Positions 1-14,585 of a stretch of DNA of 64,000 nt are shown here, piece by piece. The stretch is from assembly GCA_003153395.1 (NCBI GenBank), contig PLYP01000003.1, forward strand, positions 1 to 64,000, in the 5' to 3' direction. Positions within the stretch are counted from its first letter, which is position 1. Every line of letters begins with the position of its first letter. The position numbers were made by a program, and so were the translations under genes. The stretch comes from Candidatus Saccharimonadota bacterium. GTDB lineage: Bacteria; Patescibacteriota; Saccharimonadia; Saccharimonadales; UBA4665. A model generated the notes under the pieces. It saw only the letters and a program-made list of their open reading frames with translations. It was not told the DNA's origin and did no database searches.

Positions 1-2
1 CT

Positions 3-815
3 ATGGTAGCGGTTTCCTGCTTTATCGGTTGGGCAACCAATCACACCGTTACAAATGTCTACAATGAAGTCGTAAGACAAGGTATCACGACTGCGCAGAA
101 CCCGTTTACAGGAGTTTCCCCACTGTTCTACGCACGAAACACGATTATTTATATTGTGCTTATCGGCGCGCTACTGGCAATCGTGCTTGGCGTACAAGCA
201 GCGTTACGCGACCGTAAGGCTAAAGTGGATGACTTACTACTCAGCCGTCCAGTAAGCACCCCTGTCTATTTAGGAGCAAAGTTAACTGGGTTATGTTTGT
301 GGCTATTCGGTATCTTAGTAGTTTCAGCTTTAATAAACTGGCTTAGTATCAGTGTTATTGTCAGCCATGTCCTGTCGTTGCAAGATAGCGTACGACTCAT
401 TCTTTTTTACATAGTGGCATGGCTATTCTTAGTACCATTCGTTACTTTAGGTTTACTTAGCGGTTTATATGCTCGCCGCGAAACAAGTGCTTTGCTGGTT
501 CCTATAGTAATCTGGAGCGTCCTGACTTTTGTTATACCGCAACTTGGAACTGCAGAACACCCCGTTTCGCTGCTTAATCCGGTTCCCGCTCAGATAGTTT
601 CTCACGGCTTCTTTTTTCAGGTTAATCAATCCGTCCTTGGACCCTTATCACTAGCCGAACACTTTAAGCATTTAAGTGGTGTCATTTTACAGGATAGCCA
701 AGTCAGGGGTAGCTCAACTAAGAGCCAGATAGTCGTTGGCAGCTTTGCCCTCGTCAGTGTAGCTACTCTATTAAGCACTAAACGAACACACTTAAGGAAC
801 GAGTTAAATGAGTAG
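3..815 (+). CDS. ABC-2 type transporter permease, 5' end outside or at window edge
   Basis: Integral membrane protein of the ABC-2 permease type. The visible 270 residues hold a soluble stretch (1-45), then about six hydrophobic segments. The cytosolic sequence RDRKAKVDDLLLSRPVS (about 70-86) matches the amphipathic coupling region (usually ...LLLSRP.S) seen after the first membrane helix of such permeases. The frame is open to the window edge, so the first Met shown is probably internal. It overlaps the next permease by 8 bp, so the two are co-translated and likely form a heterodimer. No ATPase subunit is visible; it probably lies upstream. The substrate cannot be inferred. Confidence 0.75.
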   Translation: MVAVSCFIGWATNHTVTNVYNEVVRQGITTAQNPFTGVSPLFYARNTIIYIVLIGALLAIVLGVQAALRDRKAKVDDLLLSRPVSTPVYLGAKLTGLCLWLFGILVVSALINWLSISVIVSHVLSLQDSVRLILFYIVAWLFLVPFVTLGLLSGLYARRETSALLVPIVIWSVLTFVIPQLGTAEHPVSLLNPVPAQIVSHGFFFQVNQSVLGPLSLAEHFKHLSGVILQDSQVRGSSTKSQIVVGSFALVSVATLLSTKRTHLRNELNE

Positions 816-1776
816 CTTGATAGTCATTTGTAAAAAGGAGCTAAAGGACTTCACGCGCAACCGTTTTTTCGTCATACTCTTTTGTTTTCTTGCAATTATC
901 ATGGTGGTATCTGTAGCAATATCTTCTGCGGATTTTCGTTCTAAAATTGCTGACTATAATCACTATGTTGCGGCGTTGAAAGCAAGTGGAAACGCCATCT
1001 TACCGCAACCGCAATTGTTTGCATTGCAGTTGCTTCGTGGCAGCATTGAGTACCTTGAGCTAATTGGTGCTTTATTTGCCATCATTATTGGTTACGGTAT
1101 GATTGCCAAAGAAAAGCAGCGTGGTACACTCCAGTTGCTGTTCAGTCGCCCCTTAAGTAAGTACTCATTAGCAAGCGGTAAAATACTCACCTTAGCTATT
1201 GTTTGGTTTGTAACTATCGTAGCTGTCTTTATTGTTATTGTCGGCTCATTGTTAGTAATTGGTAATGCACCCTTACATGCAGTGGATTTACTACGTCTTG
1301 GCATCACAGCGGTACTATCGTGGGTATACTTATTATTTTGGAGTTGTCTGGCTATGGGCTTTGCCGCTCTGTCTAAACGGCTTAGTAGCGCACTCATCAT
1401 TACGTTGGTCATATGGCTGGTATTCGTACTCATCATGCCACAGATTGGCGACACAATGGATCCCGACAATCAAGTGCCTGGTGGATTGTTCAAAAGCTTG
1501 CAAGTTGATAAAGCTCACGAGCAGCAGGTAATAAGCCACTTTTCAGGCTATGAAACAACCCGTAACTATATTGAAGTAACGTCAATCACTAAACAGTATG
1601 AACGACCTGTCTTTGGCTATCTTGGTATTAATGAAACGTACAACCAAAAGTCAGTTGGTTTTGTTACAGTAGGCTTATGGCCGAATGTTATTTGGTTATT
1701 CGTGGCTATGATTGCTTCACTAGGTTTTGCAATGTGGAGCAGTACCAAGCAAAAGTTATTAAGAAAGGAAGCGTAA
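808..1776 (+). CDS. ABC-2 type transporter permease
   Basis: A 322-residue permease, second subunit of an ABC-2 exporter. It has an N-terminal cytosolic KKELKDFTRNRF segment, TM1 at about 18-40, an extracellular loop (40-80), then five more hydrophobic segments, the last at about 290-310. KEKQRGTLQLLFSRPLSKY (about 101-119) is the hallmark coupling helix of this family and parallels the same motif in the preceding gene, so the pair look like diverged duplicates. ATG lies inside the upstream gene's last codons. The following anchored protein starts 1 nt after its stop. Substrate unknown. Confidence 0.8.
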   Translation: MSSLIVICKKELKDFTRNRFFVILFCFLAIIMVVSVAISSADFRSKIADYNHYVAALKASGNAILPQPQLFALQLLRGSIEYLELIGALFAIIIGYGMIAKEKQRGTLQLLFSRPLSKYSLASGKILTLAIVWFVTIVAVFIVIVGSLLVIGNAPLHAVDLLRLGITAVLSWVYLLFWSCLAMGFAALSKRLSSALIITLVIWLVFVLIMPQIGDTMDPDNQVPGGLFKSLQVDKAHEQQVISHFSGYETTRNYIEVTSITKQYERPVFGYLGINETYNQKSVGFVTVGLWPNVIWLFVAMIASLGFAMWSSTKQKLLRKEA

Positions 1777-1777
1777 T

Positions 1778-2335
1778 ATGAAGAAAATTATACCTATTGT
1801 TGTTGTGGCAGTTATTGTTATTGGTGGCTTACTCACCTGGCAGCTTACAAAATCAAAAAAGACTGTAACACCAACTAAAAATACCGTGAGTACACAGGTA
1901 TTGCCAGTAAGTAGTAATCCAATCCAGAACACCAGCCAACAAGCCGGGTTAGGCATCGCTGCCGCAGACGTAGAAAATAACGTTGATCCCTCAACCAAAC
2001 AAGCAATCTCTGACCGCTTGCAACTCACGTTACAAAATACCAGTTCACAATCTATGTCTAATCTAGAGATTTATTACGAGATGAAAGATGCAAAGACTGG
2101 ACAGAGTGAAGCCTACCATCAGACATTGACTGGGCTACAAATTGCTCCGAGTGAGTCAAAAACTATCTACTTTGATAATCAAACAGGAGCTGGGCATTAC
2201 CCTGAAAATAAATATAGCCTATACCGCAGTTCCCAGAATGAAGTGGACTTTACGATTCAGGTTAGCGTGCCTGGTTTCAAGCCTGCCACAGCCACTGCAA
2301 AGAAATCGGCTGGAACGGGTGAAACATCAGGGTAA
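1778..2335 (+). CDS. membrane-anchored extracellular protein of the ABC operon
   Basis: 185 residues. Residues 4-22 form a hydrophobic anchor after MKK, followed by a Lys/Thr/Ser-rich linker and a soluble domain (about 50-170) with the alternating polar/hydrophobic pattern of a beta-sandwich (LQLTLQNTSSQSMSNLEIYY). That pattern, with an internal Gln/Asn/Ser-rich turn, resembles small FxLYD/DUF-type surface domains, but I do not recognise the family. There is no lipobox Cys, so it should stay tethered by the uncleaved helix. A GGAAG Shine-Dalgarno site lies just before the ATG, one base after the permease stop, which points to a partner of the ABC exporter. Confidence 0.6.
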   Translation: MKKIIPIVVVAVIVIGGLLTWQLTKSKKTVTPTKNTVSTQVLPVSSNPIQNTSQQAGLGIAAADVENNVDPSTKQAISDRLQLTLQNTSSQSMSNLEIYYEMKDAKTGQSEAYHQTLTGLQIAPSESKTIYFDNQTGAGHYPENKYSLYRSSQNEVDFTIQVSVPGFKPATATAKKSAGTGETSG

Positions 2336-2367
2336 GAGATAGCTATTTTGAAAGTAGCAAATACTAT

Positions 2368-2484
2368 CCAGCAAACAAGATTCTAACCTATTCTTAGGTG
2401 TTAGCGAATCTTCGTAAATTATCCAAAATAAAAACGAGGGCGCAAATCACCCCTGTTCTAACATTCAACATTCTTGTTTGGTAC
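2368..2484 (+). repeat. folding intergenic element, copy 1
   Basis: First of two homologous ~118 bp elements (the other is at 6665-6783, same orientation). Three nested pairings are visible: CAAACAAGA (2372-2380) with TCTTGTTTG (2472-2480); TGTTAG (2399-2404) with CTAACA (2458-2463); AGGG (2437-2440) with CCCT (2451-2454). On the minus strand the innermost hairpin is followed by a T-rich tract (complement of the A-run 2425-2434), so it can act as an intrinsic terminator for the leftward lipid operon ending at 2533. It sits between convergent genes. Whether it works as terminator, RNA or recombination site is open. Confidence 0.7.
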
Positions 2485-2532
2485 AGCGTCATCAACAAAG
2501 TAAGAACGGGTATATTACAGAGTATAACTGGT

Positions 2533-3294
2533 TTAGCGTCTGTATAAACTTGCTGTATTTATCAATAACTTGAGTTCATGGTATATGTAACCTATGTGAT
2601 GATTAGGGCCGTATGAAGTATAAACTTTAAGTAATAGCACCGAAAATATAAAAGTGGCAACTAAAAACAGACGAATATAATTGCGGTAAACGTATTTATG
2701 CAAAACCGGGTAGATACCCGATAGGAATAGATAGATAACGTAATAGCGACTAATTCTAACTATTACTGCGAAAATCAAGAAAGTAAGAAAAAAGTAGTGA
2801 TAATGTGGAGCTAGATGTGTAAATACTTTGTATGGCACGCCGGAGAAAGGCTGATAGACTAGCCCAAATATACCATGTGCATTAAACCAGTGTCTTACTT
2901 GTAAAACCATATTAGGTTGAACGTAAGGTAGCATATCAATCAACTTTTCGGGTATGTGTATAACAAATGCGATGAGTGTGCCAATGGCTGTACCGTAAAT
3001 GTCGTAAAACAGGAGTTCTCTTTTTCTTTGTATCCTCATAAAAATAAGTAGTATTAGAAGAAATTCTGGGATAACAAACCAAATAAGAGCTTCGCCCATT
3101 GCCCAAAAGAAAACTAACCAATTCGCATATTTACTTGTAAAAAAATATTCCAAATGACGGTTAAAGTTAACTTTAACTTCGCCGTCTTGTACATAATTAC
3201 GTCTATACAGCCAATAAAACGGGAGTATAAACAGAATTATACAAATCTGCACCACTAGGTAGTTACCGACTATTTTGAGGATAGTATCAAACAT
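2533..3294 (-). CDS. VTT/DedA-family membrane protein (YqaA-like)
   Basis: 253 residues, about six hydrophobic segments. The central GTAIGTLIAFVIH and the re-entrant FSGVPYKVFTHLAP segment (about 150-165) match the VTT (SNARE-associated/DedA) fold, in particular the P-Y-K-V-F signature of YqaA-like members. DedA/VTT proteins scramble or flip lipids and affect envelope homeostasis; that role is inferred from the family. An acidic AMGEALIWFVIPE helix (about 65-77) corresponds to the E...P element. It is last in a four-gene leftward operon, its start lies 25 bp inside ubiA-like, and it ends next to the folding element. Confidence 0.6.
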   Translation of the reverse strand: MFDTILKIVGNYLVVQICIILFILPFYWLYRRNYVQDGEVKVNFNRHLEYFFTSKYANWLVFFWAMGEALIWFVIPEFLLILLIFMRIQRKRELLFYDIYGTAIGTLIAFVIHIPEKLIDMLPYVQPNMVLQVRHWFNAHGIFGLVYQPFSGVPYKVFTHLAPHYHYFFLTFLIFAVIVRISRYYVIYLFLSGIYPVLHKYVYRNYIRLFLVATFIFSVLLLKVYTSYGPNHHIGYIYHELKLLINTASLYRR

Positions 3295-4157
3295 AAAAGT
3301 ACCGCCGCTTCAAATTGATTGTGTCCGAAAACGCTCTTATGGAAGATTACGTTTAACTTCTTTTCATTTTTCGTCTTTGTCAACGCGAGCCGAAGCATTG
3401 TGCTTCTTAGGGCTAAAATAATGACTAAAAGTAGCGTTACAAACAGAGCTACAGTTCTGCTTCTTAATAACAGCATCCCGATTATACCAATGTAGGCAAT
3501 AACTGCCGTTATAAAGCTTGTCCAAGCCGTCAAGTTTGCGCCGTATCGTAAGTAAAAAGTCTTTTTATTAAATAGCTTGTCCCCTTTTACATCCTTGTAA
3601 TCTTTCATAATAGCCGTTGAAATCCGTGCTAAGAAAAAGAGGATAGCCAGTAGTAAGAAAGTAGCGCTTAAGGGCTTGCCGCTTGCAACCAAATATCCAT
3701 ATATAAATGGCAGTGCGCCGTAGCAAAGGCCCATTATTAAGATGGAAGCAATTGGTTTTTTAGATGCTCTAATCGGATTTAGGTTATATAACCAAGCTAC
3801 GAGCAATAAACCGAGAATAACAGTAAGGTGAATTCTACGATGTGAAGATAGGAGTGCAAAAACCACCGCCATAAGAACTAAGGCTTGTACAAAAAACTTT
3901 GCCCCAGAAATTGACAGATGGTGGTCTTGCAACACACTTTGTCGCTTGTTGGCCTTATCAATCTCAAAATCTTCTATGTCATTCTGCAACGTAGCAAGAG
4001 AATGGAGTGCTAATAGAATTATCAAGCCTACAAAAAAGTCAGGACTTAAAGTATGTATAGCAAAGAAATAGCCTATACAGTAGGTTATTACACTACCTGA
4101 TACATTTTGCGGTCGGGTAAGTTGTACATAAGGTTGAATATCAGCAACAGATGGCAT
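3270..4157 (-). CDS. UbiA-family prenyltransferase
   Basis: 295 residues with about nine hydrophobic segments. Both Asp-rich motifs of the UbiA superfamily are present: NDIEDFEID (about 59-67, NDxxDxxxD) and KDYKDVKGD (about 184-192, DxxxD), which bind the Mg-prenyl diphosphate. Such enzymes move a prenyl chain to an acceptor (quinone ring, haem, or glycerophosphate, as in archaeal digeranylgeranylglyceryl-phosphate synthase). The residues seen do not fix the acceptor, and no quinone genes are nearby. Neighbours for lipid synthesis (plsY, cdsA, VTT protein) favour a lipid-related substrate, as inference. Start ATG is 21 nt after the preceding gene. Confidence 0.85.
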   Translation of the reverse strand: MPSVADIQPYVQLTRPQNVSGSVITYCIGYFFAIHTLSPDFFVGLIILLALHSLATLQNDIEDFEIDKANKRQSVLQDHHLSISGAKFFVQALVLMAVVFALLSSHRRIHLTVILGLLLVAWLYNLNPIRASKKPIASILIMGLCYGALPFIYGYLVASGKPLSATFLLLAILFFLARISTAIMKDYKDVKGDKLFNKKTFYLRYGANLTAWTSFITAVIAYIGIIGMLLLRSRTVALFVTLLLVIILALRSTMLRLALTKTKNEKKLNVIFHKSVFGHNQFEAAVLLCLILSSK

Positions 4158-4178
4158 ATATAGTGGTCGCCATCTGCA

Positions 4179-4628
4179 TTACCCGGTTGATTGCGGATGT
4201 GGGTCTTTAGCAAAACCGACTATAGCTCCTGCGATTAAGCAGACTATAAAAATGACTACTCCTACACCAAGTCCACCGAAAACAACGAATGACTTTGCAA
4301 GAACATTGTTTACCCTTCTACTTGAGCGTATAGAGTCAATAAAGAATTTAATACCCGCAATTGCGCCCAAAATTATTATTGGGTAAGCTAGGGCTTGTGC
4401 TGCACTACTGTTAGGAAGAAAAATTGCCAATAGTATTAACACCCCTAATCCCAAAAATGCGTAGTTATGAGGCTTTTTTACGGGTGCGGTTTGAGCTGCT
4501 CCCGGTTGTCGCACTGGCGCTGGTGGTTGAGCCGAGATTGTTGGAACAGGAGGGATGTCTTGACCGGGCGTATTGTTGCTTACAGCGTTAGGAGTGTTAT
4601 TGGGTTGCGGGCTGTTTTCATTATCCAC
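4179..4628 (-). CDS. Pro-rich membrane protein of unknown function
   Basis: 149 residues from GTG at 4628; a TTG eight codons earlier is possible, but GTG has a GGAGAAG Shine-Dalgarno site 7 nt upstream and overlaps the previous stop by 8 bp, typical of coupling. Residues 1-55 are Pro/Asn/Thr-rich and probably disordered; then come three hydrophobic segments (about 58-75, 82-99, 113-137) and a short tail. Sequences of this build (disordered Pro-rich head plus TM hairpin) are common in Saccharibacteria, but I recognise no family. Second gene of the leftward operon. Confidence 0.6.
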   Translation of the reverse strand: MDNENSPQPNNTPNAVSNNTPGQDIPPVPTISAQPPAPVRQPGAAQTAPVKKPHNYAFLGLGVLILLAIFLPNSSAAQALAYPIIILGAIAGIKFFIDSIRSSRRVNNVLAKSFVVFGGLGVGVVIFIVCLIAGAIVGFAKDPHPQSTG

Positions 4629-5280
4629 GGGTCTTCTCCGTAATTTTTGCAATTAGCATATTTGACCAAATTAACATAACGAAGCATACGCCAATAGCTA
4701 CGAAGGATAAAACAACCGTGATGGTTCTTCTAGCAGCCAGAAATATTAGTGCAGCTATAGTTACCGCTACATAAATCGCTGAATAAGTAGAAGTAATATT
4801 TTCTTGCCCGATTTTATGGGTTATCAGCTTTGCTACACGTAAGTTAACAGGTAGCCAAATCAGGGCAAATATTAAACCCAATACTATTGCTACTATTGTT
4901 TGAGTGTTGAAAATCAGGATACCACCCCTCATATATGGGGTTGGTGAATAGTGTACTGCCCGTACGTAAAGCAAGCCTATGGCGACAAGTGCTGCAAGCC
5001 ACAGCCATAGTCGGTTCTTCTTGCCCAACCAGACATCTAGCATAAATAGTGTGCTTAATAGCAAAAAGCCATTGCCGACTATTATCGACCTTCTTAGCAA
5101 GTCATTGCCGCCGATTGCGGCAGCAACACCCCAAGTTATAAAGGCAAGTGCTAAAGAATAATAAGCGTAAGAAAACTGACTAAGTTTAAGGTTTGTTTTG
5201 CGAATTACTAGACTATTAAAGGTGTAGGCAAATATGATGAAGCATAATCCTGTGATAGTGAACCCCAAAGTCGCAAGCAT
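4621..5280 (-). CDS. polytopic membrane protein, unknown
   Basis: 219 residues with about seven evenly spaced hydrophobic helices and short polar loops; ends with a basic KTRG tail. No catalytic motif is visible. It opens the leftward operon (this gene, Pro-rich protein, UbiA-like, VTT protein) and starts 53 bp from the divergent plsY, so both operons share one promoter region. The seven-helix layout is rhodopsin-like in number only; there is no retinal-binding Lys context that I can recognise. Confidence 0.55.
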   Translation of the reverse strand: MLATLGFTITGLCFIIFAYTFNSLVIRKTNLKLSQFSYAYYSLALAFITWGVAAAIGGNDLLRRSIIVGNGFLLLSTLFMLDVWLGKKNRLWLWLAALVAIGLLYVRAVHYSPTPYMRGGILIFNTQTIVAIVLGLIFALIWLPVNLRVAKLITHKIGQENITSTYSAIYVAVTIAALIFLAARRTITVVLSFVAIGVCFVMLIWSNMLIAKITEKTRG

Positions 5281-5318
5281 ACTTTCCCTTTTTATGGATT
5301 ACTACTGAAAGTTTAGCA

Positions 5319-5324
5319 TATACT
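5319..5324 (+). promoter_or_regulatory. -10 box of plsY, leaderless arrangement
   Basis: TATACT ends 9 nt before the plsY ATG at 5334, so transcription should start at or next to the start codon. No convincing -35 hexamer and no Shine-Dalgarno site. Confidence 0.55.
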
Positions 5325-5333
5325 TAGTTCTAA

Positions 5334-5900
5334 ATGTACGGAACCTTTTTGCTATTGATTGTAGTGGCATACTTACTCGGCTCTATTCCTTTCGGAAAAC
5401 TGGTCGGCAAGCGTCATGGGATAGACATTCAGAAGCATGGAAGCGGTAACATAGGTTTCGCCAATGTACGCCGAACACTCGGTTGGCGACCGGGGCTAAT
5501 AGTTTTAGCTGGCGACATATTAAAAGGGTTAATTCCGGTTATCATAGCCAAACACTACTTACAACCTTATCAGGTATTTATCGTAGGCATAGTTACAGTA
5601 ATAGGCCACATATTTCCCATTTGGTTGAAGTTTAGGGGCGGCAAGGGCATTGCTACTGGGCTGGGCGTTACGTTTGCCCTCAATCCGATACTAGGTGTAC
5701 TAGGCGCAGTCGTATACTTAGTAGCTTTAGCCTGTTTTAAAAAGTCTGCACCTTCATCTATTTTAGCAACGTGGAGCTTGCCTATAGTGTGCTTAGCAAT
5801 TTCACCGCAATATACTTGGCTCTATTTTTGTTTTGCAGCACTTGTTACATGGACACACCGAACTAATATCAAGCAAGAAGTACTAATGAGAAAGACATAG
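5334..5900 (+). CDS. plsY: acyl-phosphate:glycerol-3-phosphate acyltransferase PlsY
   Basis: 188-residue membrane enzyme that acylates glycerol-3-phosphate from acyl-phosphate, the first step of phospholipid synthesis. All three PlsY motifs are present: GSIPFGKLVGKRHG (about 16-29), GSGNIGFANVRRTLGWRPG (about 36-54) and GHIFPIWLKFRGGKGIATGLG (about 85-105). Length is normal (~200). It is followed after 1 nt by cdsA. No plsX or fatty-acid genes are in the window, so acyl groups may come from a host or the medium, as assumed for Saccharibacteria. Confidence 0.92.
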   Translation: MYGTFLLLIVVAYLLGSIPFGKLVGKRHGIDIQKHGSGNIGFANVRRTLGWRPGLIVLAGDILKGLIPVIIAKHYLQPYQVFIVGIVTVIGHIFPIWLKFRGGKGIATGLGVTFALNPILGVLGAVVYLVALACFKKSAPSSILATWSLPIVCLAISPQYTWLYFCFAALVTWTHRTNIKQEVLMRKT

Positions 5901-5901
5901 A

Positions 5902-6663
5902 ATGGCTGTGAGCTCTGCAAGCACTGTACCGCTTGGACATCTTATAATCTTATTCTGCGTCCTATTATTTTTGGGCATTAGCCTGACGCTTCCACTTTTT
6001 CGCTTTAACTACAGGAAGTTTTTATGCTCCAGTTTATTTATAAAAATTATCTTTTGGATACCTATTTTTCTTGTTTTTCTTGGCATACTTTATGCGAGGA
6101 ATAGTGTTCGCTTCGGAGCTTTAATTGTCTTAATGGTTGCAGCCTTTAGTGAGTTTGTCATAGTTATACAAAGACAAAAAACCAGATTGCTGCTGACACT
6201 TTACTTCCTAATTTTTGCAATTGCTTTGACACACTTTTATTTTATTGGAGCAGCGTATGAAACAAAGTTCATAAACCTACTTGTTACTATATGCTTCGCA
6301 ACGGTATTATCCGATGTAACGGCGTTTTTCTTTGGTAACTACTTGGGGGTTCACAAACTACCTGCGTTGCTAAATAAAAACAAAAGCTGGGAGGGCGTAT
6401 TTGGGCAATTAGTAGGAGCTTTATTAGGCGTATTGTTAGTGAACGCTTTTGTTACACCCGTAGTATCAATAGGGCTATTCTTGCCGTTGGGTATAGGTGG
6501 TGCGCTTGGTGATTTAGCTAATAGCTATGCAAAACGGAAAGCGAACATCAAAGATTGGAGCAGTGCTATACCGGGTCACGGCGGTTTTATTGACCGTTTA
6601 TCAAGTCTAGCTGGTAGCGCAGTTCTTGTATTCTACTTTTTGAAGTTGACTGGCATTATTTAA
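5902..6663 (+). CDS. cdsA: phosphatidate cytidylyltransferase CdsA
   Basis: 253 residues, about eight TM segments. CdsA converts phosphatidate and CTP to CDP-diacylglycerol. The C-terminal half carries the family signature: LSDVTAFFFGNYLG (about 144-157), NKSWEGVFGQ (167-176), GALGDLANSYAKRKANIKD (197-215) and IPGHGGFIDRLSS (221-233). The signature usually ends H-G-G-x-x-D-R-x-D; here the last Asp is Ser (DRLSS). The other residues of the motif are intact, so activity remains likely. Operon with plsY; the folding element begins immediately after the stop. Confidence 0.88.
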   Translation: MAVSSASTVPLGHLIILFCVLLFLGISLTLPLFRFNYRKFLCSSLFIKIIFWIPIFLVFLGILYARNSVRFGALIVLMVAAFSEFVIVIQRQKTRLLLTLYFLIFAIALTHFYFIGAAYETKFINLLVTICFATVLSDVTAFFFGNYLGVHKLPALLNKNKSWEGVFGQLVGALLGVLLVNAFVTPVVSIGLFLPLGIGGALGDLANSYAKRKANIKDWSSAIPGHGGFIDRLSSLAGSAVLVFYFLKLTGII

Positions 6664-6664
6664 C

Positions 6665-6783
6665 ACAGCAAGCGTGAGTCCAAACCTATTCTAAGGTGTT
6701 AGTCATTTTTACAAAAATCACAAAACAAAAACGAGGACATAAATTACCCCTGCTCTAACATTTAACATTCTTGCTTGCTATAC
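6665..6783 (+). repeat. folding intergenic element, copy 2
   Basis: Homologue of 2368-2484. Shared blocks are CCTATTCT.AGGTGTTAG, AAAA.AAAAACGAGG, ACCCCTG.TCTAACATT and AACATTCTTG.TTG. The terminal stem is kept by paired change: CAAAC/GTTTG in copy 1 becomes CAAGC/GCTTG here (AGCAAGC 6667-6673 with GCTTGCT 6773-6779). TGTTAG (6697-6702) again pairs with CTAACA (6755-6760). It begins right after the cdsA stop and lies between convergent genes, like copy 1. On the minus strand AGGGG...CCTCG plus a T tract resembles a terminator for the gene ending at 6898. Confidence 0.7.
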
Positions 6784-6897
6784 CTCACTGGCTGAGGTTA
6801 GAACTGTATTAATAGGTAACGCTACTTAGCTAAATTAGTAATTTAAGAGGCTAGTGTAAAGGTTCGCGTCTTTTAGTAAGAAGCTTATTTTGTAATT

Positions 6898-7236
6898 TTA
6901 GTTAGTTAATGAAGCTTCAAATCCTACAGGAGGGCAGAACGGACTATTAGGATAAACTTCACTAGTAAATTGAGGTGTGCCAATATTCTCCTGAACAACT
7001 AAAGCCGATGAAAGTGTCTGATTGTCAGGACCCGAAGCTCCTACACAATGAACCGCAAATGATCCCATTCCTCTTTGAGGAACCGCAAGCGTTACTTCGC
7101 CGAGATGGGAGTTTGAGCTATCAGTACCCTCAATTAGACCCGCGACTCCCATAACAGCCAAAGTGCTTAACATTACTGCAAGTGCTCGAGCTGGAGGTTC
7201 ATTTTTTATATCAAACAATCTTTTAAGCTGATCCAT
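6898..7236 (-). CDS. small anchored or secreted protein, unknown
   Basis: 112 residues. A short cytosolic head (1-16) precedes one hydrophobic segment (about 17-35), then an exported domain with two Cys (about 64 and 100) that could form a disulfide. The exported part alternates beta-type stretches (GEVTLAVPQRGMG, SSALVVQEN), but I recognise no family. An AT-rich promoter (TAATAT) stands 6 nt before the ATG, consistent with a leaderless transcript. Its 3' end faces folding-element copy 2. Confidence 0.5.
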   Translation of the reverse strand: MDQLKRLFDIKNEPPARALAVMLSTLAVMGVAGLIEGTDSSNSHLGEVTLAVPQRGMGSFAVHCVGASGPDNQTLSSALVVQENIGTPQFTSEVYPNSPFCPPVGFEASLTN

Positions 7237-7284
7237 AATATTATATTAACATAAAAATAGTTAAAGTCAACGGTGACTGATTAG

Positions 7285-7304
7285 GTGGCGAGCAGGATTC
7301 GAAC
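7285..7304 (-). other. tRNA T-arm/3' end remnant
   Basis: Reading leftward, GTTCGAATCCTGCTCGCCAC is a tRNA T-loop followed by acceptor-like sequence. The core GTTCGAATCCTGC is identical to the T-arm of tRNA-Arg about 120 bp away and in the same orientation, but the T-stem has lost a G, no anticodon arm or D-arm precedes it, and the CCA end is gone. It could be a decayed tRNA or a target-site copy left by an integrated element. Confidence 0.5.
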
Positions 7305-7392
7305 TACTTTAAGGAGCTAAATATTAACTAACCCAAAAGTGTTAAATTATCTGAACTGAATATTACAGAGGTTACAACACGTATTGTAGAAA

Positions 7393-7469
7393 TGGTACGC
7401 GTGGCAGGATTCGAACCTACGACCTTTGGCTCCGCAAGCCAACGCTCTATCCAGCTGAGCTACACGCGC
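7393..7469 (-). tRNA. tRNA-Arg (anticodon GCG)
   Basis: 77 nt cloverleaf on the minus strand. Acceptor GCGCGTG pairs with CACGCGT (the outermost pair is G-T), D-arm GCTCAGCTGGATAGAGC, anticodon stem TTGGC/GCCAA with loop TTGCGGA, T-arm GTAGGTTCGAATCCTGC, discriminator A and encoded CCA. Anticodon GCG reads CGC/CGU. Confidence 0.95.
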
Positions 7470-7636
7470 AAATGTTCAAATTTTGTAATGAAACAGAGGT
7501 AATATTAACATATTTAAGCCATCCTATCTATATTTATAAATATTAATTATGGCAGTATGCAAATTAACTGGAGTGCCCTTTCTTAATAGTGTAATCATCT
7601 TACACAAAAACCATAGCTGCTAAAATACTCAGTTAA

Positions 7637-7728
<92 letters not shown>

Positions 7729-7772
7729 GGCAGTGATATAAATAGAAGATTTACTGTTATTCAGCGTTGATA

Positions 7773-7778
7773 TACACT
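7773..7778 (+). promoter_or_regulatory. -10 box of ROK kinase gene, leaderless arrangement
   Basis: TACACT (overlapping TATACA) ends 8 nt before the ATG at 7787. No Shine-Dalgarno site. Confidence 0.45.
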
Positions 7779-7786
7779 TTTATCTT

Positions 7787-8677
7787 ATGAGCAGTAATCC
7801 TTATGGAGGAATAGAAGCCGGAGGCACAAAGTTTAGCTGTGCCATAGGTACTAGCCCTGGTGATATCCAACAGATCATTCATATTCCTACGACAACACCA
7901 AGCGAAACTTTAAGTAAAGTAGTAGAGTTTTTTAAAAATAACGGCCCTATCGAAAGTTTAGGACTAGCTGCTTTTGGTCCCATAGAAATAAATAAAAAAT
8001 CTCCAAATTATGGTCACCTTACATCCACACCTAAGGAAGGCTGGAGAGGTTTTGATCTCCTAGGATATTTAAAGGAAAAATTAAACATTTCCATATATCT
8101 GGAGACAGATGTTCAGAGTGCTTTAAGAGCAGAACATTTACTGGGAGCTGGACAAGGCATAGACAATCTTTTGTATATAACTGTAGGAGGTGGCATTGGT
8201 GGCGCGAGTCTAGTAAATGGTCACCTTTTAGAAGGTTTAATGCATCAAGAAATAGGCCATATGTTTATTCCTAAACTTGAAGAAGATAAAAGTTTCGACG
8301 GAGTTTGTCACTTTCACAATGACTGCTGGGAAGGATTATCAAGTGGCCCCTCAATTGAAACAAGATGGGGTAAATCGGGCGAAGATCTTGGTATTGACCA
8401 TAATGCCTGGGAACTAGAAGCTAAGTATTTAGCTTACGGAATAGTGAATGCACTGCTTGTGACTATGCCGGAGCGCATAATTGTGGGCGGTGGAGTAATG
8501 AAAAATGAGGGGTTAATAGATAAAGTAAGACTTAATATATATAAAATGCTAAATGGGTATATAGATCTTCCGTCACTAACAAATCTTGAAGCATTAGAAA
8601 AGTATATCGTTCTTCCGAGTTTAGGATCTAGTAGTGGAATATTAGGAGCCTTAATGCTTGCTAGATCAGAATCTTAG
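7787..8677 (+). CDS. ROK-family sugar kinase (fructokinase-like)
   Basis: 296 residues. N-terminal phosphate loop YGGIEAGGTKF (about 6-16), the sugar-binding and catalytic Asp in YLETDVQSALRAE (about 104-116), GGGIGGASLVNGHLLEG (about 134-150), and the ROK zinc site HQEIGHMFI plus GVCHFHNDCWEGLSSGPSI (about 172-190) are all present. The wording of these motifs is closest to the fructokinases of Firmicutes (ScrK/GmuE type), which phosphorylate fructose or mannose with ATP in the cytosol. Length is normal. It is a single gene downstream of tRNA-Ser, with no sugar transporter next to it. Confidence 0.85.
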   Translation: MSSNPYGGIEAGGTKFSCAIGTSPGDIQQIIHIPTTTPSETLSKVVEFFKNNGPIESLGLAAFGPIEINKKSPNYGHLTSTPKEGWRGFDLLGYLKEKLNISIYLETDVQSALRAEHLLGAGQGIDNLLYITVGGGIGGASLVNGHLLEGLMHQEIGHMFIPKLEEDKSFDGVCHFHNDCWEGLSSGPSIETRWGKSGEDLGIDHNAWELEAKYLAYGIVNALLVTMPERIIVGGGVMKNEGLIDKVRLNIYKMLNGYIDLPSLTNLEALEKYIVLPSLGSSSGILGALMLARSES

Positions 8678-8698
8678 AGTTATATAATTTATTAACGA

Positions 8699-9103
8699 CT
8701 AAGATTGTTTGTAAGACGACGGAAACTGCTGGAGTAGCCATAAATTACCATCAGGATCACTGAAACTTGCATACTTAACGCCTTGCATATCTGTTACGTC
8801 ACCTACTTCTATCCCCTGCTTAAGTAAATATCTCCTGGTATTTTCCATATCTTTTACTACTAAGTGCAAACCTTTTATAGAACCAGGCGCCATATCGGAT
8901 ATTCCACTCATTCCGCTACCAAAAACTATTGAACAAGCTGAACCTGGCGGCGTTAGTTGTACCACTCTCATAGTTTCGGTAGGTTTTATGTCTACTTCAA
9001 GCTAAAATCCAGCTTTTATATAAAACTCTTTAGCATTATCAATATTAGAAACTGGGATCGGTACTAACTCTAAATACATCTCCGGTATATTATTATCGGA
9101 CAT
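8699..9103 (-). pseudogene. VOC (glyoxalase/bleomycin-resistance) protein, interrupted by TAG
   Basis: Reading from ATG at 9103, 33 codons give a typical VOC start (LVPIPVSNIDNAKEFYIKAGF); an in-frame TAG follows at 9004-9002, then the same frame continues for 100 codons (LEVDIKPTETMRVVQLTPPG, then SIKGLHLVVKDM and a C-terminal FSDPDGNLWLLQQ). The downstream part alone could start at ATG 8971 (90 aa) but would lack the first beta strand and a metal ligand. TAG is a normal stop elsewhere in the window, so this is a nonsense mutation or an assembly error. It follows the 9108-10328 gene by 4 nt. Confidence 0.75.
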
Positions 9104-9107
9104 AATC

Positions 9108-10328
9108 TTATTGAATTAGCCCCCTGTTATTTGATTTAGGCTTGGCTTTTAGCAGTGGTGCGGATGATGGTGATGAAGAGTTAGATTGAGAAGGTATGGG
9201 ACTTATTGAGTCTACATAGCTAATAGGCAGAACTTTTGATTGTTTAGTGTTTGATGAACCTACATTCTCTTGATTACTACCTGGCTTCCCTGCTTCTGAA
9301 TTATCCACAGGTGGTTTATTTGTTAATGACTTACGCCTTAGAACTAGCAGCAAAATTATTAAGATTAAAGCTAAAATTACGTACAATACTCCAATTTCTA
9401 GATCGACTTTTGCTATAGACGTTTCAATTTTGTTAAATAAATTAATCAGTACTTGATGAAAAGTACTTAATTGAGAATTATTTCGTATAGCATCTCTAAG
9501 TTGATTAGTAGCTGCACCTGTAACAGCTTTAATGACTATTAGGATTATTCCGCTAATAAGTAATATTATGCTTATATTTTTTATTCCACGTCGTTTTCTT
9601 GCTGAACAAAACAAAATTCCCAGTGCGCAAATTATCGCAAGAGAGGCTAAAAGCCACGGCATTTTTAAATACCATTGGTAATATGATGGTGCATTAGGAT
9701 ACTTTTGGTAATAAAGACTATGGGGGGTATTTTTAGTACTAAGATTAGCGGCAGTTATTTGAGCATTGCTAAGAACCGTACTACCGCTATCTACTTCACT
9801 AATAAGTTGTGCGCTAATACTGCTTAAATCAATGCTAGGCGGCTTACAGCCTAGAGCAAGAGGGTTTGAGGGCTGTAACTGAAGCAACTGCGCCTTTGTG
9901 CAATTAGGTAATGCAGATATCTGGGTTTGGACGAACCTATTAATCCCATCATTTAGATTGTGCTTAACAGTAGATAAATCAATTTTGAAATTTGGTGATG
10001 AAGAATGGCCCTCTAGCCATAGATAATTATTGTTTATTATCGTATTTACGTCTTGATTAAAAACGGATTTAGGAAAGGCTGAGACTATTGCAGGTTTAAT
10101 GAAATTGTTTAGACCGTTTATCTGGTAACTGGATGAAAGAGATTTTTGTGTATCAGATGCTAACTTATCGATGAAGCTTTCATACAAGTTACTTTGATTT
10201 AGCCAACCTTCAATTTTTACAGGATTGGAAAATGTATGAGATATACTCGCGGTAAATGCCGTTCCAAGAAGTGAGACTAGAAAAACTAATGACAGTACTC
10301 CAACAAATAGTTTCCTTACCCTCAGCAT
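9108..10328 (-). CDS. large membrane-anchored protein, unknown
   Basis: 406 residues. A signal-anchor helix at about 8-28 is followed by a ~190-residue exported domain (NLYESFIDKLASDT...), then three hydrophobic segments at about 220-240, 250-268 and 315-332, and a Ser/Pro/Lys-rich tail of about 70 residues. The arrangement is like the Asn/Ser-rich integral membrane proteins found in Saccharibacteria and Actinobacteria next to envelope genes, but I cannot name it. A TAGAAT box 6 nt before the ATG implies a leaderless transcript. Two Cys in the exported part may form a disulfide. Confidence 0.55.
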   Translation of the reverse strand: MLRVRKLFVGVLSLVFLVSLLGTAFTASISHTFSNPVKIEGWLNQSNLYESFIDKLASDTQKSLSSSYQINGLNNFIKPAIVSAFPKSVFNQDVNTIINNNYLWLEGHSSSPNFKIDLSTVKHNLNDGINRFVQTQISALPNCTKAQLLQLQPSNPLALGCKPPSIDLSSISAQLISEVDSGSTVLSNAQITAANLSTKNTPHSLYYQKYPNAPSYYQWYLKMPWLLASLAIICALGILFCSARKRRGIKNISIILLISGIILIVIKAVTGAATNQLRDAIRNNSQLSTFHQVLINLFNKIETSIAKVDLEIGVLYVILALILIILLLVLRRKSLTNKPPVDNSEAGKPGSNQENVGSSNTKQSKVLPISYVDSISPIPSQSNSSSPSSAPLLKAKPKSNNRGLIQ

Positions 10329-10334
10329 GTATTT

Positions 10335-10340
10335 ATTCTA
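10335..10340 (-). promoter_or_regulatory. -10 box of the 9108-10328 gene, leaderless arrangement
   Basis: TAGAAT on the minus strand, 6 nt before ATG at 10328; no Shine-Dalgarno site. Confidence 0.45.
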
Positions 10341-10425
10341 GCCTAAATAAACATAATTAGTATCAGATACGTTTTATTCTTAATATATTTTTAGAAGTAG
10401 AGAATGCTAGAAGTTTCATTTCGGC

Positions 10426-10431
10426 TATAAT
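10426..10431 (+). promoter_or_regulatory. -10 box of HIT gene, leaderless arrangement
   Basis: Consensus TATAAT ends 8 nt before ATG at 10440; no Shine-Dalgarno site in the gap. Confidence 0.6.
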
Positions 10432-10439
10432 TATATTTA

Positions 10440-10832
10440 ATGGAAGACAGTATATTCACTAAAATCGTAAAGGGTGAAATCCCTAGCTATAAGATATACG
10501 AAGACGATTACACCCTGGCCTTCTTAGATATTCACCCCGTTCAAAGCGGGCATACCCTAGTGATACCTAAGCAACAAGTAGAGTTCCTCTGGGACTTAGA
10601 CGATGAAATATATCAGCGAGTTATGGCTACCTCTAAAAAGGTTGCTAACCGAATAAAGGATGTAATTAAGCCAAGTTTTGTAGGCATGCAAGTCATTGGA
10701 GTGGACGTAGCACACGCTCATGTTCACTTAATACCCTTCTCTAGTGTTCAAGAATTTCGAAAAGTGCCGAACATGACCGAAGAGCCTGACCATAATTCAT
10801 TAAAAGAAACTGCCAGAATATTGGCATTTTAA
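10440..10832 (+). CDS. HIT-family nucleotide hydrolase (HinT-like)
   Basis: 130 residues. It begins with the family motif IFTKIVKGEIPSYKIYEDD (5-23), then AFLDIHPVQSGHTLVIPKQ (28-46), and has the histidine triad HAHVHLIPF (about 92-100) with the catalytic middle His. HinT-type enzymes hydrolyse AMP-lysine-like phosphoramidates or dinucleoside polyphosphates in the cytosol. Length is normal. A small membrane-protein gene follows after 23 nt with its own -10 box. Confidence 0.9.
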   Translation: MEDSIFTKIVKGEIPSYKIYEDDYTLAFLDIHPVQSGHTLVIPKQQVEFLWDLDDEIYQRVMATSKKVANRIKDVIKPSFVGMQVIGVDVAHAHVHLIPFSSVQEFRKVPNMTEEPDHNSLKETARILAF

Positions 10833-10843
10833 GCATCATTACA

Positions 10844-10849
10844 TATAGT
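10844..10849 (+). promoter_or_regulatory. -10 box of the 58-aa gene, leaderless arrangement
   Basis: TATAGT ends 6 nt before ATG at 10856. Confidence 0.4.
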
Positions 10850-10855
10850 TAAGCT

Positions 10856-11032
10856 ATGGCTTTTCTATACTCTTTATTTTTCGGTGGCGGAGTAGCTGCA
10901 TTTGCTTACAGTACCCTAGCTAGAAGAGTTGGCTATAACAATAATCAAAATGTAGCCATATTAGTAGGCGTAATTTTTGTACTTGCAACTGCCGTTTTCT
11001 ATACATTTCTAGCGTTTATTCTTCACGTCTAA
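10856..11032 (+). CDS. 58-residue membrane protein, unknown
   Basis: Small open frame with two hydrophobic segments (about 2-20 and 33-55) joined by a basic/Asn turn (ARRVGYNNNQN). The even hydrophobic pattern, TATAGT box at the leaderless distance, and fit between two real genes support it as a true gene. No family recognised; small TM hairpins like this are frequent in Saccharibacteria. Confidence 0.5.
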   Translation: MAFLYSLFFGGGVAAFAYSTLARRVGYNNNQNVAILVGVIFVLATAVFYTFLAFILHV

Positions 11033-11090
11033 TAGCCTTTTAAGGTTAGTTTATATTGGATATTTAGGCTTTCGCTGATACCATAAGGCT

Positions 11091-11936
11091 ATGGATGAGA
11101 GAGGTCTGGGTAAACATTTGCAGTTGGCGCGTCAGAACGCCGGTTTAACTCAACAGCAGTTGTGCAGTAGAGCTAATCTTAGTTTTTCGACCCTGACAAA
11201 AATAGAAAGAGGCGCTATAAAGTCGCCCTCGATCTTTACCGTTCAAGCAATTGCAGGTGCGCTTAACGTAAGCCTTGATGAACTGATAGGCCAGCCTAAA
11301 TCTAAAGCTGAAGATCGTAATTATCAGGTAACTAAAACCGGTGTTAAATTCGTATATTTCGACGTAAACGGCTGTCTGGTTTATTTTTATCAGAGGGCCT
11401 TTGATAAATTGGCTTTAGATACCGGAGCGCAGCTAGAAACTGTCGAATCCGCTTTCTGGCATTTTAATGATCAAGTATGCCGGGGCGAATTAAGTTTAAG
11501 CGATTTTAACCATGAACTCGCAAAACGTCTAAGTGTAGACTCAATTAACTGGCCTAAATATTATCTTGATACGGTTGAACCTATTAAAGAGATGCAGGAA
11601 CTTCTGGTATGGGCTAGTCAAAGGTACAGAGTAGGTTTACTATCCAACATTATGCCCGGATTACTTAGCTCGATGCGACGCAACAAGCAATTACCAGATA
11701 TAGATTATGATGTAATTATAGATTCTTCGGAGGTGGGTGCAATCAAACCAGAGGCAAAAATATATGAAATTGCCCAGCATAGAGCTGGATTTCCGACTGA
11801 GCAGATACTACTCATAGACGACGGACGCGTTAATTTAATGGCCGCAGAGCGTTTAGGCTGGCATGTATTATCTTTTGATGATTCTAGGTCTGAGGAAGCC
11901 GTAAATAGAGCTAAACAGGCGCTAGAGCCGGCTTAA
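11091..11936 (+). CDS. XRE-type HTH fused to HAD-superfamily hydrolase
   Basis: 281 residues, two domains. Residues 6-68 are a Cro/C1-type helix-turn-helix (LGKHLQLARQNAGLTQQQLC...LTKIERGAIKSPS). Residues 85-280 are a HAD domain: motif I FDVNGCLV (the second Asp is Asn), motif II LLSNI (about 187), motif III IKPEAKIYE (about 223-231), motif IV LLIDDGRVN (about 245-253). Motif I without the second Asp resembles the YihX-type FDxGxV sub-family. The fusion suggests a DNA-binding sensor that handles a phosphorylated metabolite; this is inference. TACCAT lies 6 nt before the ATG. It is convergent with valS, 1 nt apart. Confidence 0.8.
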   Translation: MDERGLGKHLQLARQNAGLTQQQLCSRANLSFSTLTKIERGAIKSPSIFTVQAIAGALNVSLDELIGQPKSKAEDRNYQVTKTGVKFVYFDVNGCLVYFYQRAFDKLALDTGAQLETVESAFWHFNDQVCRGELSLSDFNHELAKRLSVDSINWPKYYLDTVEPIKEMQELLVWASQRYRVGLLSNIMPGLLSSMRRNKQLPDIDYDVIIDSSEVGAIKPEAKIYEIAQHRAGFPTEQILLIDDGRVNLMAAERLGWHVLSFDDSRSEEAVNRAKQALEPA

Positions 11937-11937
11937 A

Positions 11938-14574
11938 CTAGCTACTAAAGCGCTCTACCTCAGCTTTTATTGAATCTAATAGGGTTTTGGCATCTTCTAT
12001 TTGATTTTTAGTTTGCTTAACTACATTTTTGGGAGCGTTTTTAACATAGTTTTTATTCTGTAATCTAAGTTCCAATTTCTTAATCATATTTTCTTGATCG
12101 ATTATTCTATTTAGAAGCTCGGTTTTATAAGTGTTGGCCATCGATTCATCAATGTCTAGCCAAGAGATGCGCTTAGTATTGGTAAGATGAATTCCCTTGC
12201 CTTCTTTAACTGATTCGACTGCCTGAAGGCCTGCCATACGCTTGATGACAGCAGAGTTAGCTTCTATGAATTCGTCCGATGTATGGTAAAGCGTTACTCC
12301 TGAGACTTTCAGGGCTTTTATTATGTACCTAGCTTCCGAGATTATGGATTGAATTTCAGTGAAATCTTTAGCCTTAGCTTCGTCGCTCCCAATTGTAGGA
12401 CCCAAGGTTTTAGATGCTAAGATTGTCCCTTCTTCCCAATTTAGCGTTTGCCAGATAGTTTCTGTAACAAAAGGCGCGAATGGATGAACGAGTACTAATA
12501 TCTCTTCCAGCAAGTATGCTAACAGAGGTATATTTACCTCAGCTTTACTAGCTTCTATATACCAATCAGCAACATCATTCCAAATAAATTGGTAGAGGCT
12601 TTCATATACTTCACTAAAACGATAATTATCTAAATCGGTAGTCGACTTCTCTTTAATTCGTTGTAAATTAGTCAATATCCAGTGATCGGCTAATGATACC
12701 GGTTGAGGTTTCTTTATATCCGTACTATCTCCAACTACTCCTTCTATATAGCGGGCAATATTCCAAATTTTATTAGCAAACCGCTGATTGGCTTCGATTT
12801 TACTCCAGCCCCAGGTTTGATCATTTCCAGGTGTAACACCCATAATTAATGCCATTCTCAAGGCATCGGTTCCATATTTAGGAATAATATCCAACGGATC
12901 TATGATGGATTCCGGCCGGCTCTTACTCATTTTTTTACCATCTTCGGCCCTTATTAGTCCGTGTAAATATACTTGCTTAAAAGGGATTTCACCTGTTACG
13001 TAAGTAGTTGCTAGAATCATTCTCGCAACCCAGAAAAATAGTATGTCCCAACCAGTTTCCATTACAGACGTCGGATGATAAGCGTTATAGTCCTTGCTAC
13101 GCTTGAGTAGTTCGTCCAGTGATAAAGAGTAGTCCTGAGCTAATTCGGGATCTACTAGGGTACTCCATGTCCAGAGAGCTGAACTGAACCAAGTATCAAG
13201 AGTGTCAGGGTCTTGCTCCCATTCATGCCAGCCTTCACTGTGATCAGTTGGTGGCTTAACACCTACATAAGTTTCTTCCCTGCCATCGGTATCGTTTCTA
13301 TACCAGACTGGAACTCTGTGTCCCCACCATATTTGACGGCTAATACACCAGTCTCTTAAATTATCTATCCAGTTGAAGTATATTTTTTCAAATCTTTTGG
13401 GTATAAGCTCAATATCTTCGTCTCTTATGACAGATTGAAGCACTTCCTTTAAGCTTAGTTTTTTACCTTTCCAAGGGATGACTTGTTTTTTAACGTCAAC
13501 GAACCACTGTAATCTTATCTGCGGCTCAATTATTCCCTTGCCTCTTTCGTTAATTGCAACGTTATGCAGGTAATTTTCATCAATCTTAATCAGTAACCCC
13601 TTACTCTTCAATTTTTCTACAATTTTTGGCCTGGCTTCTTCAATGGATTGACCTGAAAACTCCTCGGCGATAGGAAGCAAATTACCATGAAAATCTATGA
13701 TTTGTTCCTTATCTAGCCCGTGTCTCTCGGCAATCTCAAAATCCACTAAGCTATGCCAAGGAGTAATTGTCATTACACCAGTACCGAACTTAGGATCTAC
13801 CGCTTCGTCTTTAATAATTGTCGCTATTATAGGACCATTTATCCATTCAACTTCAATTTTTTCACCATGTTTGTACTTAGCGTAACGCTTATCATCGGGG
13901 TGCATTACAACATACTTATCACCGAATTTAGTTTCTGGTCGAGCAGTTCCTATCTCAAAAGGACCATATTTAAAGGTATAAAATTTGGACTTCTCTTCAA
14001 TATATGTGATTTCATCATCGGAAACGTTTGTTTCAAGTTTAGGATCCCAATTCACTATTCTATGACCCCTGTAAATTAAGCCGTCATTGTACATCTTTAC
14101 AAAGGTCTCATTAACGCATCTATTTAAGGCCTCATCTAGTGTATATCTCAGCCTAGTCCAATCTGTACTGGCACCCATGGCTCTCATTTGTTCGAGCATA
14201 GTTTCGCGGCTGTTACCTACGAAATCCCTGGTCATTTCGATGAACTTTTCCCTGCCCACCTCATGTTTGTTTGTCCCCTCTTGCTCTAACTTCTTTTCAA
14301 TAATTGCATTAACGGCAAGAGCGGCGTGATCTGTTCCAGGCAGCCAGAGCACATCCATTCCCTTTTGCCGAGCATGACGCGCCATAATATCTTGTAAGGT
14401 TATAAATAAAGCATGGCCGATACTTAGGGTACCTGTTTCATTTGGGGGCGGCATACTAATAGAAAAGTGCTCTTTGCCGCTATCCGGATTTGCCACAAAG
14501 GCGCCACTCTTTTCCCAAAGAGCATATATATCTTTCTCATAGTTGCTAGCTTCGTAGGCTTTAGGTAGTTTCAT
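11938..14574 (-). CDS. valS: valyl-tRNA synthetase
   Basis: 878-residue class I synthetase that charges tRNA-Val. Recognised by PPPNETGTLSIGHAL (42-56), the editing CP1 domain (about 190-340), WCISRQIWWGHRVPVWY (about 402-418), GWDILFFWVARMI and the KMSKS loop GKKMSKSRPESI (about 543-554). A C-terminal coiled coil (about 810-878, rich in K/N/E) is the usual tRNA-binding arm. The HIGH motif reads S-I-G-H: the first His is Ser51 (codon AGT at 14424-14422). A four-codon mini-ORF overlaps the start codon. Convergent with the XRE-HAD gene. Confidence 0.95.
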   Translation of the reverse strand: MKLPKAYEASNYEKDIYALWEKSGAFVANPDSGKEHFSISMPPPNETGTLSIGHALFITLQDIMARHARQKGMDVLWLPGTDHAALAVNAIIEKKLEQEGTNKHEVGREKFIEMTRDFVGNSRETMLEQMRAMGASTDWTRLRYTLDEALNRCVNETFVKMYNDGLIYRGHRIVNWDPKLETNVSDDEITYIEEKSKFYTFKYGPFEIGTARPETKFGDKYVVMHPDDKRYAKYKHGEKIEVEWINGPIIATIIKDEAVDPKFGTGVMTITPWHSLVDFEIAERHGLDKEQIIDFHGNLLPIAEEFSGQSIEEARPKIVEKLKSKGLLIKIDENYLHNVAINERGKGIIEPQIRLQWFVDVKKQVIPWKGKKLSLKEVLQSVIRDEDIELIPKRFEKIYFNWIDNLRDWCISRQIWWGHRVPVWYRNDTDGREETYVGVKPPTDHSEGWHEWEQDPDTLDTWFSSALWTWSTLVDPELAQDYSLSLDELLKRSKDYNAYHPTSVMETGWDILFFWVARMILATTYVTGEIPFKQVYLHGLIRAEDGKKMSKSRPESIIDPLDIIPKYGTDALRMALIMGVTPGNDQTWGWSKIEANQRFANKIWNIARYIEGVVGDSTDIKKPQPVSLADHWILTNLQRIKEKSTTDLDNYRFSEVYESLYQFIWNDVADWYIEASKAEVNIPLLAYLLEEILVLVHPFAPFVTETIWQTLNWEEGTILASKTLGPTIGSDEAKAKDFTEIQSIISEARYIIKALKVSGVTLYHTSDEFIEANSAVIKRMAGLQAVESVKEGKGIHLTNTKRISWLDIDESMANTYKTELLNRIIDQENMIKKLELRLQNKNYVKNAPKNVVKQTKNQIEDAKTLLDSIKAEVERFSS

Positions 14575-14585
14575 CTTTGTCCCAT
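14571..14585 (-). promoter_or_regulatory. mini-ORF leader (Met-Gly-Gln-Arg-stop) overlapping valS start
   Basis: ATG GGA CAA AGA TGA on the minus strand; its stop TGA overlaps the valS ATG (ATGA). The only good Shine-Dalgarno site, AGAGGTG (14597-14591), is spaced for the mini-ORF (5 nt) and too far (19 nt) for valS. A consensus TATAAT lies at 14609-14604. Translation of valS may depend on re-initiation after the mini-ORF. Confidence 0.5.

Follow-up and report, generated by a model that had tools for sequence, protein, structure and literature searches.

Repeats Beside a tRNA-Arg Gene of a Saccharibacterial Genome as Probable Junctions of an Integron-Like Cassette Array

The Locus

The first 64,000 nucleotides of contig PLYP01000003.1 (forward strand, assembly GCA_003153395.1), from a Candidatus Saccharimonadota bacterium of the order Saccharimonadales and hereafter called the window, hold two copies of an element of about 115 bp each, in the same orientation, at 2368–2484 (copy 1) and 6665–6783 (copy 2), with a cluster of lipid genes between them. 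The repeats are, with a probability put at about 0.86, the sites at which gene cassettes join in an integron-like array located at the 3′ end of a tRNA-Arg gene. An original prediction had described the copies as a folding element with a compensatory base change, to be read either as a terminator or 3′-end RNA or as a recombination or miniature mobile element. Both copies were recovered at the positions and in the orientation it had given: each of three motifs derived from them has exactly two matches in the 64 kb, where at most 0.11 matches are expected and none of 100 shuffles reaches two. A third, degenerate copy lies at 7392–7291, directly after the tRNA-Arg gene, and whole-genome searches of the organism's own 920-kb genome returned no further convincing copies.

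The functional site starts further out than the copies as first drawn, at GTACCA or GTATAGCA (minus-strand ends 2479 and 6776), and takes in about 24 nt more upstream. On the minus strand, each repeat is where two cassettes of an array meet, and the array itself has its start at the 3′ end of tRNA-Arg(GCG). The order on this strand is tRNA-Arg, a first site (att0), cassette A, the right end (RE) of A followed by the left end of the lipid cassette B (copy 2), the RE of B followed by the left end of cassette C (copy 1), and cassette C itself, which runs off the contig. The features, with the supporting evidence and including each open reading frame (ORF), are as follows.

7393–7469, minus: tRNA-Arg(GCG), capture site of the array, ending ..CACGCGTACCA (ARAGORN; the left block starts exactly at the tRNA-Arg 3′ end in 14 related sites)
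7291–7392, minus: att0, degenerate first site directly after the tRNA, ending CTCCTTAAAGTAGTTCGAATCCTGC (sequence; weak profile match 7401–7291, E 0.005)
6898–7236, minus: cassette A, ORF of 112 amino acids, function unknown (no Pfam match)
6776–6805, minus: RE of cassette A, AGTTCTAACCTCAGCCAGTGAGGTATAGCA (RE profile 6804–6776, E 0.007; alignment)
6666–6775, minus: left end of lipid cassette B (copy 2), terminator-like hairpin 6756–6727, then CTAACACCTTAGAATAGGTTTGGAC at 6702–6678 (E 2e-18)
5902–6663, plus: cassette B, CdsA-like cytidylyltransferase (Pfam PF01148, E 3e-29; 73% amino acid identity to the homologue beside tRNA-Arg(TCG) in the relative G206)
5334–5900, plus: cassette B, PlsY glycerol-3-phosphate acyltransferase (Pfam PF02660, E 2e-50)
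4621–5280, minus: cassette B, membrane-like protein of 219 amino acids, conserved in the cluster (86% identity in G206; no Pfam match)
4179–4652, minus: cassette B, protein of 157 amino acids (83% identity in G206)
3270–4157, minus: cassette B, UbiA-family prenyltransferase (Pfam PF01040, E 2e-28; 73% identity in G206)
2533–3294, minus: cassette B, membrane-like protein of 253 amino acids (92% identity in G206; no Pfam match)
2479–2508, minus: RE of cassette B, CGTTCTTACTTTGTTGATGACGCTGTACCA (RE profile 2507–2479, E 0.014; alignment)
2371–2478, minus: left end of cassette C (copy 1), terminator hairpin 2459–2430, then CTAACACCTAAGAATAGGTTAGAAT at 2404–2380 (E 3e-20)
1–2370, no strand assigned: cassette C or flank, two ABC-2 permease ORFs and an ORF of 185 amino acids (the contig starts at base 1, and the right end falls outside the view)

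Anatomy of the Sites

The anatomy of the sites was derived from an alignment of 25 of them. The RE has the form GGTTCTRACYT-N9-RGGTGTACCA, measures 30 nt in almost all internal sites and resembles a tRNA T-arm plus 3′ end. The left end that follows it consists of GTACCA, about 75 nt, and then CTAACACCTTANNNTAGGTTCGAATCC. The middle of the site comes in two kinds, with either a strong terminator (the window, G004, G163, G221, G026 and G219) or a weak hairpin, and TACCA is preserved in 35 of the 37 sites. By eye, the reverse complement of the RE (TGGTACACC-N9-AGGTTAGAAC) looks like the CTAACACCT-N6-AGGTTCGAA of the left-end motif, and the two may be variants of a single core.

Distribution and tRNA-Arg Targeting

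A covariance model built from the two window copies found, in the relative G004 (a sequence match to CP025011, Ca. Saccharibacteria YM_S32_TM7_50_20), two copies in the same orientation, 0.9 kb apart, flanking an antitoxin/PIN-toxin pair. A pattern search with the conserved 3′ part added more genomes, in several of which a tRNA gene ends in GTACCA and the element starts there. A sequence model of 18 sites, run at E ≤ 1e-4 against 295 genomes of the order, detected 45 sites, spread over 22 genomes of a single family, plus one weak match elsewhere, and the looser cut-off of E ≤ 0.01 gave sites in 31 of the 93 family genomes. For all 14 profile matches that abut a tRNA (E < 0.01), the match starts at the final 8 nt of a tRNA-Arg gene (GCG in seven, TCG in four, CCG in three) and at no other tRNA, and in every one of them the placement is precise and the tRNA intact.

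Exact scans of 84,980 species genomes returned two Saccharibacteria-type records, CP025011 and a contig of G163, both already in the set, plus chance matches inside genes. A lone match in an alphaproteobacterial genome was rejected as chance, being situated within a gene, and viral carriers were likewise dismissed after pattern scans of viral contigs had given a single match, by chance within a phage-like gene.

The contigs that carry arrays are frequently very short, 3–7 kb (G163:C69, G163:C31, G025:C59, G243:C34), and arrays are probably undercounted in draft genomes because the repeats break assemblies. At 9300–9500 and 7492–7704 of L018, G004 also has a palindromic repeat of a second, unrelated kind, AGAAAAGCT...GAGAAAGCTTTTCT. 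It is situated between tRNA-Arg and the first cassette, and an apparent further copy, judged by a similar translated ORF, lies past the array.

Cassettes and Their Inferred Movement

Fifty-one intervals between sites were listed, a few of which (those of 60–187 bp and a tRNA-to-tRNA gap) are not cassettes. The median interval is 880 bp, the units are mostly 0.4–2 kb, and the longest is the lipid cassette of the window at 4.3 kb. The cargo is mainly toxin–antitoxin pairs: among 95 ORFs, the Pfam matches were PIN 20, MazE 15, ParE 8, PrlF 7, RHH 6, PemK 3 and Fic 3, where one protein may match several families. Gene orientation within the cassettes is mixed.

The same unit recurs in different places. 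A VapBC unit of about 880 bp lies at tRNA-Arg(CCG) in G221 and G241 and at tRNA-Arg(GCG) in G271; in G208, G025 and G276 it occurs internally or at a contig end. A RelBE unit was found at CCG, TCG and internal sites. The homology of both units spans GTACCA to GTACCA; identity just inside the unit ends is 0.71–0.79, as against 0.52 for random 40-mers, and outside the units it is 0.53, with the left side of RelBE at 0.61 owing to one pair of close relatives. Synteny at the GCG locus extends as far as the final tRNA base, breaks off there, and is picked up again 2.8–5.9 kb further on, past content that differs from genome to genome. Exchangeable cassettes are seen to form an array at one capture point. 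At the level of sequence comparison, these data demonstrate the boundaries of the units, the exclusive targeting of tRNA-Arg and the occurrence of one and the same unit at different tRNA-Arg genes.

The original prediction that the repeats bracket a lipid gene cluster was borne out, and the cluster (PlsY, CdsA-like, UbiA and three more genes) was demonstrated, by comparing genomes, to be one cassette. PlsY is present in just 4 of 92 family genomes. In G206, which belongs to another genus, all six lipid genes follow in the same order, with 65–92% amino acid identity, directly 3′ of tRNA-Arg(TCG); this copy begins with GTACCA, and its left-end block is 79% identical over 63 nt to copy 1 of the window, which constitutes the most direct evidence that the block between the copies moves as a unit. 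A related lipid cluster in G211 lies away from any tRNA, and the short contig of G029 contains no tRNA.

A unit runs from GTACCA to GTACCA and comprises a left end, often with an intrinsic terminator, one or a few genes, and a 30-nt RE whose sequence mimics the T-arm and 3′ end of tRNA-Arg. According to the proposed mechanism, units may be excised as circles and inserted by conservative site-specific recombination, with the exchange inside GTACCA and the tRNA left intact, and a unit of the terminator class would supply the tRNA with a new 3′ trailer and terminator in place of the displaced one. The recombinase would act in trans, the candidates being the host's only tyrosine recombinase (Xer) or a large serine integrase brought by a conjugative element that visits tRNA-Arg.

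Candidate Recombinases

A search with PF00589 found one tyrosine recombinase in the organism's own genome, an Xer-like protein at C5:85011–85538; the array lies about 78 kb away. In most array genomes, too, an Xer-like protein is the single tyrosine recombinase, 72–85% identical across the order to that of the window genome. G138 and G234 have additional tyrosine integrases, which share about 30% identity with Xer and have no cassette site nearby. A canonical dif site (up to 3 mismatches) was absent from all 8 genomes tested, where the canonical pattern may not be the lineage's own dif.

In several of these genomes a large serine recombinase adjoins the 3′ end of a tRNA, which in G234 and G241 is tRNA-Arg(GCG). 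No serine recombinases were detected in four array genomes, some of them incomplete. The sequence after GTACCA and the flanks of the G234 and G241 elements are unlike the cassette left ends. Large serine recombinase genes were also observed to end inside or against the 3′ end of an opposite-strand tRNA, namely tRNA-Met (L069), tRNA-Leu (L070), tRNA-Arg GCG (L071 and L072/L161) and tRNA-Glu (L073), which suggests serine integrases that use tRNA 3′ ends. Positions 1–15547 of G234:C7 (L159) form a conjugative-like element that ends at tRNA-Arg(GCG) and encodes both a tyrosine integrase and a large serine recombinase.

Alternative Explanations

The structural features that had been reported for the repeats were found again in the window. 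On the minus strand, an A-U pair of the terminal stem has become G-C with both sides changed and pairing kept, as claimed, and a second two-sided change, G-C to A-U, came to light in the inner hairpin; G-U pairs are tolerated on this strand. The GC hairpin followed by a T run is clear in copy 1 (−10.8 kcal/mol) and weaker in copy 2 (−4.5 kcal/mol). Three pairings had been said to persist: the terminal stem and the inner hairpin do so in both window copies, whereas the TGTTAG/CTAACA helix occurs in just 3 of 37 related sites, two being the window copies themselves, and is essentially private to the window. The Rfam 15 covariance models gave no match at E ≤ 5, in line with the statement that no named RNA fits the element.

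A structured RNA or 3′-end terminator kept at convergent gene ends, with the repeat around the lipid genes incidental, would account for the terminator-like hairpin and T tract on the minus strand of both copies, for the G-U tolerance and for the two two-sided changes, and is nevertheless very improbable and largely refuted already by the lack of an Rfam match, by the absence of the TGTTAG/CTAACA helix from relatives, by the confinement of strong terminators to one class and by RNAalifold, which found no common pair in 18 sites. The RNA reading is weakened by the refuting condition of the original prediction itself, further copies in which the pairs are not kept. Selection on structure did not hold up as the unifying feature: across all 34 sites the terminal stem paired no better with its own arm than in cross-pairing (Wilcoxon p = 0.16), although own-arm pairing was better within the strong-terminator class (ranks 0–10 of 33; combined p about 3e-4, the sites being not fully independent). 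Nor are convergent gene ends the rule: the orientation of cassette genes is mixed. Position is set by the 3′ ends of tRNA-Arg, which also counts against the RNA reading. Non-autonomous transposons sent by a transposase to tRNA-Arg 3′ ends in one orientation, with GTACCA as a target-site duplication of 5–6 bp and not a recombination core, would explain the direct repeat at both unit ends, the fixed orientation and the tRNA targeting; the right end, however, holds a tRNA-like GGTTC...GTGTACCA module, as expected of a core shared with an attachment site, and the listed cassettes contain no transposase (the genomes were not searched for Tn7-type or other transposases), which leaves this explanation unlikely. 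Slightly less credit goes to the array as accreted debris of ordinary integrative elements (integrative and conjugative elements or satellites) that used tRNA-Arg and decayed, with no cassette system as such. The large serine recombinases of conjugative-like elements beside tRNA-Arg(GCG) in G234 and G241 and the degeneracy of some sites fit such a history, but units of about 0.7–0.9 kb keep both ends precisely and recur intact across several species and positions, which decay would not produce, and what follows GTACCA in the two elements differs from the cassette left ends.

The common denominator of the sites is tRNA-like recombination ends, not selection on RNA structure. Of the two readings first offered, the recombination or mobile element was right in kind, the repeats being cassette boundaries at tRNA-Arg, and the terminator survives as a component, a strong one in one class of sites and lacking in the others. 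A candidate RNA family was also rejected: a sequence-plus-structure model (R1) found few relatives, and its matches in G058 and G052 are away from tRNA-Arg and look like ordinary terminators. Where a cassette brings a terminator, the tRNA probably acquires a new 3′ trailer from it. The native terminators of saccharibacterial tRNAs are long hairpins whose stem takes in the NCCA end of the mature tRNA itself (e.g., ACCAGTAAAAACACC...GGTGTTTTTACTGGT). Pairing of the terminator with the tRNA's own ACCA was seen for 11 of 145 tRNAs of various kinds, including tRNA-Arg of cassette-free relatives, and for none in shuffles; such terminators lie just 3′ of tRNA-Arg in L141, L142, L145, L146, L150, L140 and L092, and occur in L143, L109, L080 and L051 as well.

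Several observations weigh against the cassette array. Mobility is deduced from comparisons between species, no movement at strain level was observed, and neither circles nor excision nor an empty site in the same strain came to light. The right ends are weakly conserved (those of the window match at E 0.007–0.014), copy 2 carries GTATAGCA in place of GTGTACCA, and both the right end and the CTAACACC motif are gone from the lipid copy of G206. A strong terminator is missing from many tRNA-proximal sites, so the trailer role is not general. Finally, no recombinase is evident in the listed cassette ORFs or among the 25 Pfam families listed, with 37 rarer families outside that list.

Comparison with Known Systems

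The genomes of Saccharibacteria, organisms that live on other bacteria and are thought to depend on host lipids, are very small, and little is known of how these bacteria gain genes. A cassette array at tRNA-Arg would be a concrete and testable route of gene gain; it would explain their patchy toxin–antitoxin content and shows a set of phospholipid genes travelling as one unit. A description of integrons, cassettes or tRNA-Arg arrays in Saccharibacteria or Patescibacteria was not found in the open-access literature. There is a slightly better than even chance that this is a separate, undescribed cassette system of one Saccharibacteria family, integron-like, in which capture takes place at tRNA-Arg 3′ ends and host Xer or a large serine integrase serves in trans as the recombinase. 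By it, epibionts with tiny genomes would gather toxin–antitoxin and metabolic cassettes, a set for phospholipid synthesis among them.

The hairpin and T tract downstream of tRNA-Arg are like those of Rho-independent terminators and tRNA 3′ trailers, with the difference that the terminator here travels with the cassette and recurs between cassettes. The dif/pdif modules of Acinetobacter plasmids are, according to two accounts (PMC13141974, PMC12907356), small, often toxin–antitoxin modules with a recombination site on either side, which the housekeeping XerC/XerD move in trans. The cassettes share this size, cargo and flanking by recombination sites. The sites here, in contrast, are chromosomal, at tRNA-Arg, about 145 bp long and direct repeats, and the canonical dif was not found in the 8 genomes. 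Tycheposons insert at tRNA 3′ ends with the tRNA intact and carry their cargo beside it. The same kind of insertion is described for tRNA-targeting genomic islands in the Islander paper (PMC4383910). The array agrees with both in these respects, and differs in that islands and tycheposons have their own integrase, whereas the units here are small, show no evident integrase and are stacked in arrays.

The likeness to integrons (sedentary chromosomal ones and CALIN) comprises small head-to-tail cassettes with one recombination site each, a richness in toxin–antitoxin genes, and a fixed capture point at one end; in addition, the sites may hold two inverted core-like motifs around a variable middle, to judge by eye. 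Membership among the integrons was rejected on two grounds: no integrase lies beside the array (PF00589 search; no IntI-specific model was run), and the attC R-box GTTRRRY is present in just 2 of 37 sites. Unlike in integrons, there is no integron integrase, the capture point is the 3′ end of tRNA-Arg, the boundary is GTACCA, the left end bears a terminator in one class and gene orientation is mixed. Should Xer or the serine integrase of a visiting element prove to be the enzyme, an integron-like system would have evolved here without the integron integrase.

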